Source: Streptomyces soli (lineage in GTDB: Bacteria; Actinomycetota; Actinomycetes; Streptomycetales; Streptomycetaceae). From it: a DNA stretch of 64,000 bases. Below the pieces are notes generated by a model, which had not been told where the DNA came from, ran no database searches, and worked only from the letters and a program-made list of their open reading frames with translations. Positions 50,374-60,057 of this stretch are shown piece by piece. Both the position numbers and the translations under genes were made by a program. The DNA is taken from contig NZ_RJVR01000192.1 in the NCBI RefSeq assembly GCF_003999195.1, forward strand, positions 1 to 64,000, in the 5' to 3' direction. Within the stretch, counting starts at the first letter, position 1. Every line of letters starts with the position of its first letter.

Positions 50374-51297
50374 ATGGGACGCTATGTGATCCGCCGTCTG
50401 CTGCAGATGATCCCGGTGTTCATCGGCACGACGCTGCTGATCTTCTTCATGGTGTACGCCCTCGGCGACCCCGTCGCCGCCAAGTGCGGCGAACGCGCCT
50501 GCGACCCCGCCACCGCCGCGCAGATCCGCAAGGACCTCTACCTCGACCACCCCCTGTGGCAGCAGTACCTGCACTACATGGGCCAGATCTTCCAGGGTGA
50601 CTTCGGCACCGCCTACAACGGCCAGCAGGTCACCGCGCTGATGGGGAGCGCCTTCCCGGTGACGCTGCGGCTCACCATCGTCGCGATCCTCTTCGAGATC
50701 ATCATCGGCATCACGCTCGGCGTCATCACCGGCATGCGGCGCGGCCGGCCTGTCGACACCGGCGCCCTGCTGCTGACCCTGATCGTGATCTCCATCCCGA
50801 CCTTCGTCACCGGCTATGTGCTTCAGTACCTGCTCGGCGTCAAATGGGGCGTCATCTCACCCTCGGTGTCCACGGGGGCGCCCTTCAACGAGCTGATCAT
50901 CCCCGGCCTCGTCCTCGCGCTGGTCTCCCTGGCGTACGTCACCCGGCTCACCCGTACCTCCATCGTCGAGAACGCCCGCGCCGACTACGTACGTACCGCC
51001 ATCGCCAAGGGCCTGCCGCGCGGCCGGGTCATCACCCGCCACCTGCTGCGCAACTCCCTCATCCCGGTGGTCACCTTCATCGGCACCGACATCGGGGCGC
51101 TCATGGGTGGCGCCATCGTCACCGAGCGGATCTTCAACATCCGCGGCGTCGGCTTCCAGCTCTACCAGGGCATCCTGCGCCTCGACTCGGCGACCGTCGT
51201 CGGCTTCGTGACCATCCTCGTCATCGTCTTCCTGGTGGCGAACCTCCTCGTCGACCTCCTGTACGCAGTTCTGGACCCGAGGATCCGCTATGCGTAG
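50374..51297 (+). CDS. Oligopeptide ABC transporter permease, OppB/DppB type (operon 2)
   Basis: The product is 307 residues: MGRYVIRRLLQMIPVFIGTT first helix, external loop with two cysteines (CGERAC), then five helices and the EAA loop (ADYVRTAIAKGLPRGRVIT). Typical OppB length is about 306. It forms the channel with the permease at 51618. The start follows CGGGAAGG by 7 bases. The downstream gap of 320 bases, where a MITE-like element lies, is unusual for this operon. Confidence 0.92.
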   Translation: MGRYVIRRLLQMIPVFIGTTLLIFFMVYALGDPVAAKCGERACDPATAAQIRKDLYLDHPLWQQYLHYMGQIFQGDFGTAYNGQQVTALMGSAFPVTLRLTIVAILFEIIIGITLGVITGMRRGRPVDTGALLLTLIVISIPTFVTGYVLQYLLGVKWGVISPSVSTGAPFNELIIPGLVLALVSLAYVTRLTRTSIVENARADYVRTAIAKGLPRGRVITRHLLRNSLIPVVTFIGTDIGALMGGAIVTERIFNIRGVGFQLYQGILRLDSATVVGFVTILVIVFLVANLLVDLLYAVLDPRIRYA

Positions 51298-51326
51298 GCC
51301 GCTGCGCGGCCAGGAATCCGCATTTA

Positions 51327-51544
51327 AGAGGCCGCGCAAATTGGTGGGTGGGGGAAGGAGCGGTGTCCGGGCCGAGTCTGGCAAGGCGGTGGGGCACTCC
51401 CCCAGCCTTCGGCCGGGGGGACCCCCACCAGCCGCCAGGGCTGGGGGAGAGGGAGGCACCCTGGTTTTGGGTGGCGACCGACGACAACGCCGCCAGGCGA
51501 GAGTCCGGGCGCCGCGACGCCGCCCACCAATTTGCGCGGCCTCT
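51327..51544. mobile_element. MITE-like element with 22-bp perfect terminal inverted repeats, copy 1
   Basis: The ends at 51327-51348 and 51523-51544 are exact reverse complements (outer bases AGAGGCCGCG). The 218-base element encodes no protein. Its interior carries GCCGAGTCTGGCAAGGCGG and GACCGACGACAACGCCGCCA, both also present in copy 2 at 59879-60057. A nested palindromic repeat lies at about 51391-51450. No clear target duplication was seen. It separates two permease genes of one operon. Confidence 0.8.
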
Positions 51545-51547
51545 AAG

Positions 51548-51568
51548 CCTGCCCGCAGCGCGGGCAGG
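51548..51568 (+). other. Small hairpin after the MITE-like element
   Basis: A 9-bp stem (CCTGCCCGC 51548-51556 with 51560-51568) and 3-base loop follow the element and precede the next permease by 50 bases. It may be an original intra-operon structure displaced by the insertion. Confidence 0.5.
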
Positions 51569-51617: not shown

Positions 51618-52604
51618 ATGCCTGAGCCCGATAATCACCGCGACGAAGCGATTGAGCCCGCGGGCGGGACCGGCGCGAGCATAAACCTCGCGCAGGACGA
51701 GGCACGGTCCCTGGAACGCCGGCCCGGCGGCGGGCAGGCTCCGGGCGGGCCGGCGGAGAAGCCGCGCAGCCTGTGGTCGGACGCGTGGCGGGATCTGCGG
51801 CGCAACTCGATCTTCGTCATCTCGGCGCTGGTGATCATCTTCCTGGTCGTCATCTCGCTCTGGCCGAGCCTGATCGCCAGCGGCAACCCGCTCAGCTGCA
51901 ACCTCGGCAACTCCCAGAAGGGCTCGACGCCCGGCCACCCCTTCGGCTTCGACAACCAGGGCTGCGACGTGTACACGCGGGTCGTCTACGGCGCCCGCGC
52001 CTCCGTCACCGTGGGCGTCTGCGCGACGCTGGGCGCGGCGATCCTGGGCAGTGTGCTGGGCGGGCTGGCCGGGTTCTTCGGCGGCTGGGGGGACGCGATC
52101 CTGTCCCGGGTCAGCGACATCTTCTTCGGCATCCCGATCGTGCTGGGCGGGCTGGTCTTCCTGTCCGTGATCACCAACACCACCGTCTGGCCGGTGGTCG
52201 GCTTCATCGTGCTGCTGGGCTGGCCGCAGATCGGCCGCATCGCGCGCGGCTCGGTCATCACCGCCCGCCAGAACGACTACGTACAGGCCGCGCGGGCGCT
52301 CGGGGCGGGCAACTCCCGGCTGCTGCTGCGGCACATCGCGCCCAATGCGGTGGCCCCGGTGATCGTGGTCGCGACGATCGCGCTCGGTACGTACATCTCG
52401 CTGGAGGCCACGCTGTCGTACCTCGGGGTCGGGCTGAAGCCGCCGACCGTGTCCTGGGGCATCGACATCTCCCAGGCGTCCAGCCAGATCCGCAACGCGC
52501 CGCACATGCTGCTGTGGCCGGCCGGGGCGCTGAGCGTGACCGTGCTCGCCTTCATCATGCTCGGCGACGCGGTGCGCGACGCCCTCGACCCCAAGCTGCA
52601 CTGA
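51618..52604 (+). CDS. Oligopeptide ABC transporter permease, OppC/DppC type (operon 2)
   Basis: The product is 328 residues. A cytoplasmic N-terminus of about 55 residues ends at SLWSDAWRDLRRNSIFVISA, typical for OppC. Six helices follow, with the EAA loop in NDYVQAARALGAGNSRLLLR and the terminal MLGDAVRDALDPKLH. GAGGACTCCTT precedes the ATG. It pairs with the permease at 50374, from which the MITE-like insertion separates it. Confidence 0.92.
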   Translation: MPEPDNHRDEAIEPAGGTGASINLAQDEARSLERRPGGGQAPGGPAEKPRSLWSDAWRDLRRNSIFVISALVIIFLVVISLWPSLIASGNPLSCNLGNSQKGSTPGHPFGFDNQGCDVYTRVVYGARASVTVGVCATLGAAILGSVLGGLAGFFGGWGDAILSRVSDIFFGIPIVLGGLVFLSVITNTTVWPVVGFIVLLGWPQIGRIARGSVITARQNDYVQAARALGAGNSRLLLRHIAPNAVAPVIVVATIALGTYISLEATLSYLGVGLKPPTVSWGIDISQASSQIRNAPHMLLWPAGALSVTVLAFIMLGDAVRDALDPKLH

Positions 52605-59878: not shown

Positions 59879-60057
59879 AGAGGCCGCGCAATTAGGTGGG
59901 GCGGAGGAAGGAGCGGGGCGAGGGCCGAGTCCGGCAAGGCGGTGGGGGCACTCCCCCACCCAGCCGCCAGGCTGGGTGACGTCGTCGACCGACGACAACG
60001 CCGCCAGGCGAGAGCCACCGGCACGCGACACCGCCCCACCCATTCGCCGCGGCCTCT
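59879..60057. mobile_element. MITE-like element, copy 2 (shorter, ends less perfect)
   Basis: The left end AGAGGCCGCGCAATTAGGTG and the right end (reverse complement of 60031-60057) match imperfectly. The interior shares GGGCCGAGTCCGGCAAGGCG and GACCGACGACAACGCCGCCA with copy 1. A palindrome core (GGGGGCACTCCCCC) is present but smaller. At 179 bases it is 39 shorter than copy 1. Confidence 0.75.

Follow-up and report, generated by a model that had tools for sequence, protein, structure and literature searches.

An opp-operon insertion of Streptomyces soli as a probable IS5-mobilised MITE with a conserved hairpin core

We propose that the insertion that separates oppB from oppC in Streptomyces soli is a MITE moved in trans by an IS5-family transposase, and that its interior is one member of a family of ~160-bp hairpins, spread among actinobacteria, whose folded core is conserved. 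On the sequence evidence presented below, we give this reading a probability of roughly 85%. The common view of MITEs is that of decayed insertion sequences with conserved ends and a filler middle. The family described here is the reverse of that picture: conservation of its middle extends over several genera and, weakly, over classes, and it is the ends that change.

Results

Boundaries and parts of the element

The window, that is, the whole stretch analysed, covers 64,000 nucleotides of contig NZ_RJVR01000192.1 (assembly GCF_003999195.1). Domain matches to SBP_bac_5, OppB, OppC, OppD and OppF confirmed that the genes around the insertion form an opp operon. The oppB permease gene (50374-51297, + strand; PF00528 and PF19300) lies upstream of the element, and the oppC permease gene (51618-52604, + strand), recognised by domain matches and comparison with relatives, lies downstream. 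A first-pass annotation of this DNA had described a non-coding element with perfect 22-bp terminal repeats. Indeed, positions 51327-51348 and 51523-51544 are exact reverse complements, and the body is non-coding, with no transposase gene inside. Comparison with other copies showed that the outermost A and T of these 22-bp ends are part of a TAA target duplication (51325-51327 on the left, 51544-51546 on the right), so that the element proper is the 216 bp at 51328-51543. Its sequence, a covariance model and RNA folding describe it as a single long hairpin, whose sense (+) strand is that of the opp genes.

The left terminal inverted repeat, GAGGCCGCGCAAATTGGTGGG (51328-51348, + strand), is of the IS5 type, and its exact reverse complement forms the right repeat (51523-51543, - strand). 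Between the repeats, alignments and the covariance model delimit the two arms of the conserved core on the + strand: a 5′ arm (GGGGAAGGAGCGG ... CTGGCAAGGCGG, 51351-51389) comprising an outer internal loop and a mid stem, and a 3′ arm (GACCGACGACAACGCCGCCAGGCG ... GCGCCGCGACGCC, 51476-51520). Also on the + strand, the covariance model and the fold place at 51450-51475 the apical hairpin GCACCC-TGGTTTT-GGGTGGC together with AGGGAG, which is what remains of the conserved purine-rich loop strand; this hairpin resembles those of loci L356 and L375. The copy thus retains the core arms and the apical hairpin, and a palindromic insert of ~60 bp (TGGGGCACTCCCCCAGCCTTCGGCCGGGGGGACCCCCACC ..., 51390-51449, + strand), revealed by copy comparison and by folding with and without it, occupies the 5′ side of the inner loop. 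Such modules differ in number between copies and also occur alone in relatives. The palindromic module GGTGGGGGCACTCCCCCAGCCTTCGGCCGGGGGGACCCCCACC was seen single, nested and paired, both within MITEs and by itself in related genomes (window 51390-51449; L315-L318; L080, L082, L078), and may be a separate REP-like repeat. In the window copy (51328-51348 and 51523-51543), L009 and L309/L310, the two arms carry shared deviations from the family consensus, which suggests arm-to-arm correction.

Copies, target duplications and empty sites

A second copy reported in the window proved to be real. It spans 177 bp (59880-60056, + strand), has diverged ends with TTA on its left flank and TCT on its right, and carries palindromes in place of the apical domain. 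A covariance model built without both window copies matches them at 51338-51535 (E=4e-16) and 59891-60046 (E=2.4e-13). Across the genome, the ends gave 81 matches with at most three mismatches, against 0 for a reversed control pattern, and the whole element matched 80 stretches. When the ends were paired, 31 complete copies emerged in addition to the second one of the window; they measure 58-360 bp, and the most similar pairs are 98.7-98.8% identical. Of these 31 scored copies, 23 have the same 3 bp on both sides; shuffling the flanks among copies 10,000 times gave 10.6 such copies on average and never more than 20. TNA accounts for 52 of the 62 flanks. Copies of 58 and 72 bp that do not have the core nevertheless show target duplications; the core is thus not obviously needed for movement, which would require the ends only, unless these copies lost their core after insertion. 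In most GAGGCC-ended copies of this genome, palindromic inserts replace the purine-rich loop strand. A further element with inverted repeats, whose ends read AGTGGCTCGTNGCGCAACCT and whose centre is related, was seen at L314 and L322 (contigs C22 and C268 of this assembly).

At the opp locus, the oppB/oppC junction is without the element in all 29 congeners inspected. The oppB stop and the oppC start overlap by 8 nt (TATGCCTGA) in 28 of 29 relatives inspected; in the closest relative (G029), 23 bp separate the two genes. This overlap is lost in the window genome, where the spacer reaches 320 bp, of which the element and one duplication make up 219 bp. These empty sites rule out an old structural element at this spot. 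When the joined flanks of twelve other insertions were searched against G029, five (L003, L006, L012, L021 and L028) aligned continuously across the junction, and this unbroken alignment marks them as empty sites in that genome. The MITE copy at L028 interrupts a different palindromic repeat midway (GGTTCTGGACGCTCCGCATATTTGTG...), and G029 has ~10 copies of that repeat.

Altogether, the copies, TNA duplications, empty sites and matching IS5-family ends support the non-autonomous transposon proposed by the first-pass annotation. Of the two observations that it had named as contrary, presence at the same spot in distant Streptomyces and lack of further copies, neither was made: the element is absent from this spot in relatives, and its further copies are many. 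The sequence features by which bacterial MITEs are recognised are all present, namely short length, no transposase gene, terminal inverted repeats, a target duplication, multiple copies and empty sites.

IS5-family transposases and the ends

The parent transposase family, which the first-pass annotation had not recognised, is the IS5 family (NF033580/PF13340): a search for a transposase with matching ends found one whose ends are close, not identical, to those of the MITE. In this genome, a 169-aa fragment matches NF033580 (2e-30, 106.2 bits, just below the cut-off of 110) and PF13340 (9.7e-13). On contig C370, a right end TTA-GAGGCCGCGCGGACAGGCGG adjoins an IS5-family transposase gene, and at C214:8377-10393 such a gene lies between matching ends in a 2,017-bp element with TAA on both sides. 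In these closest two copies, the transposase is split over two frames, which may reflect decay or programmed frameshifting, as proposed for other IS5 groups (PMC3281130). The 2,017-bp element (L119 1478-3494) looks like an IS with a passenger gene, its downstream frame resembling a metallo-beta-lactamase-fold hydrolase (HWHEDHTGS motif). An obviously intact helper transposase with exact ends was not found in the assembly, a weak negative given its 412 contigs with IS copies at contig ends.

Across 80 loci from named genomes, elements of this transposase group are ~967 bp long, carry GAGGYCGCGCRGATAGGYG ends and adjoin TNA, the two flanks being not always identical. Near-matching IS5 ends occur in named Streptomyces loci (L239, L229 and L238). 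The end of the window copy is unusual (GAGGCCGCGCAAATTGGTGGGT) and shares 20 of 22 bases with an IS end from Streptomyces sp. SID486 (L300). More generally, the terminal repeats of these IS5-family IS (NF033580, DUF4096/DDE_Tnp_1) mostly share 16-19 of 22 bases with the MITE consensus end, and both target TNA. The IS encode a transposase and have no core sequence, whereas the reverse is true of the MITE; among 151 transposase loci, no parental IS carrying the core was found.

A conserved core between changing ends

The first-pass annotation had also missed that the interior is conserved, structured and common to elements with unrelated ends. In the alignment of copies, the left and right parts are constant, the centre varies and contains nested palindromes, and the same interior is present between other terminal repeats. 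By similarity search, the 115-bp core of a compact copy matches 77 of 150 Streptomycetaceae genomes. The covariance model matches 73 of 247 genomes of the class. In a draw across the phylum it matches 13 of 198, and at least two of these distant matches (L386 and L391) visibly contain the loop motif, the other weak ones being unconfirmed. No phage carrying the core was found.

At least ten kinds of terminal repeat flank the core, in elements with a total length of ~160 bp; examples begin with GAGGCCGCGC, GACCGACCGGC, GGGCCTGTC, CAGGCCCCGGACGATG, CGACCTCGCCC and GTGCTGGCGTGAAAATT. In a locus of another genus (L324), the core is 95% identical and the ends are different, and the genome of S. soli itself also has the core with CTAGGGCCTGTCCGGCCGATCTCCG ends (L355, E=6e-23). 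Some of the other end types match transposase-bearing elements too, as in L306, which has GACCGACCGGC ends with TAA, and in two transposase-bearing loci of this genome (L155 and L161), whose CTAG-GGCCTGTT ends are like those of another core end type. Because it occurs with so many terminal repeats, the core appears to have repeatedly exchanged one transposase partner for another.

The consensus folds into one long hairpin of ~160 bp. In a first alignment of 28 sequences, 87.3% of cells pair, both sides have changed in 39 of 50 pairs, and covariation reaches 0.521; shuffled controls give 0.163, and slid ones no more than 0.152. A second alignment of 30 sequences from the class-wide search (A2) gave 0.677 against 0.190 shuffled, this alignment being fitted to the model. 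The outermost helix is expected to covary because it consists of the terminal repeats, a reason that does not hold for the mid and apical helices. The stems are variable and covarying, and the internal loops GGCGGAGGAGGGAG / CGACCGACGACAACGCC are near-invariant: per-column identity is 98% in the inner loops and 51% in the terminal stems. Set opposite one another, GAGGAGGGAG and CGACCGACGA would allow three tandem G·A modules, with G-C pairs between them. The apical loop C-GGA-G is invariant in the first alignment, and other lineages have different apical loops. G-U cells outnumber A-C cells by 123 to 32 (~4:1) on one strand, from which we infer selection on a folded single strand, either RNA or single-stranded DNA. 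As RNA, the window copy folds at -161.4 kcal/mol in the sense direction (z -10.7) and at -132.0 in antisense. Searches of Rfam 15 at gathering and relaxed thresholds gave no family match, only chance miRNA matches. On 15 Streptomyces plasmids, no annotated RNA overlaps the core, a weak observation as the gene table holds no RNA genes.

Discussion

The element is most likely a transposase-dependent parasite, whose core may act, as a folded strand, to the advantage of the element itself. An IS5-family transposase would move it in trans by binding the ~20-bp ends and inserting it into TNA, and through different terminal repeats the conserved core would switch transposase partner time and again. 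The folded single strand of the core, as RNA or single-stranded DNA, would be under selection, and since orientation relative to neighbouring genes is random, the core would mainly serve the spread or persistence of the element rather than the host operon. We see about even odds for a more specific version, in which an old actinobacterial hairpin with a conserved tandem G·A core survives by repeatedly acquiring terminal repeats that fit different transposases, the core being a folded RNA or single-stranded DNA.

All the MITE features listed above would also be expected of an ordinary IS5-derived MITE with a neutral filler interior, whose shared core would reflect recent spread and the maintenance of palindromes by DNA hairpin correction. 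The unbiased gene orientation fits this as well, and so do the non-consensus bases repeated in both arms of several copies, as templated arm correction gives. However, arm correction leaves unexplained why the loops are so much more conserved than the ends and why G-U exceeds A-C fourfold, and the motif survives in other families and classes; we consider such a neutral interior unlikely. Recognition of the core as a DNA hairpin in transposition or replication, through its G·A-rich loops and GGA apical loop, seems possible though doubtful. The element has strand polarity without a gene orientation bias, and the apical loop that is invariant in the first alignment resembles GNA DNA mini-hairpins, but the apical loops differ in other lineages.

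A host-exapted mRNA element, in which the hairpin tunes transcript stability, for instance by RNase III processing, and attenuates oppC-oppF, appears quite improbable. It would suit the very stable sense fold, the location of the element sense strand on the opp gene strand and the loss of the oppB/oppC overlap, and the Correia elements of Neisseria offer a precedent for a transcript-stability hairpin with RNase III processing (PMC10969869). However, around 82 loci, a simple GC3 gene finder placed neighbouring genes 32 times in the element sense and 35 times in antisense; a general host-mRNA role is therefore not supported, and this unbiased orientation argues against a simple mRNA role.

Compared with known systems, the transposase-dependent parasite that we favour resembles IS5-family MITEs in being short and non-coding, with perfect terminal repeats, a TNA duplication and IS5-matching ends, but differs by its conserved structured core, also found with unrelated ends. 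Correia/NEMIS, ERIC and bcr1 elements are likewise intergenic, MITE-like, ~100-200 bp long and present in many copies with long hairpins; they belong to other hosts and are set beside the core family by description, not sequence. To our knowledge, no exchange of terminal repeats around a single core is described for them. The small palindromic modules of the window copy recall REP/BIME palindromes, being short and abundant and in part occurring on their own, whereas the element itself differs by its terminal inverted repeats, target duplications and family length of ~160 bp. A conserved core with exchanged ends was not described in the literature searched, in which subscription journals were few and ISfinder was outside scope; a 2024 review of prokaryotic MITEs (PMC10969869) does not mention the core, and a text search of it for actinobacterial names returned nothing. 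The insertion is thus a member of the known IS5 MITE kind, with a structured core with exchanged ends that is apparently undescribed. It offers a testable case of a non-autonomous element outliving its transposases, and brings to light a structured sequence that is common in antibiotic-producing actinomycetes, their plasmids included.

For the opp operon itself, the insertion is probably tolerated in the spacer, with a modest polar effect at most. The oppC gene has its own ribosome-binding-like upstream sequence, GAGGA, which also speaks against the mRNA role discussed above, as does the window element, in which no T-run terminator after the stem and no sigma-70-like promoter were found. Two small perfect hairpins, GGCCGCTGCGCGGCC and CCTGCCCGCAGCGCGGGCAGG, flank the insertion (51297-51311 and 51548-51568), in a spacer that is absent in relatives.
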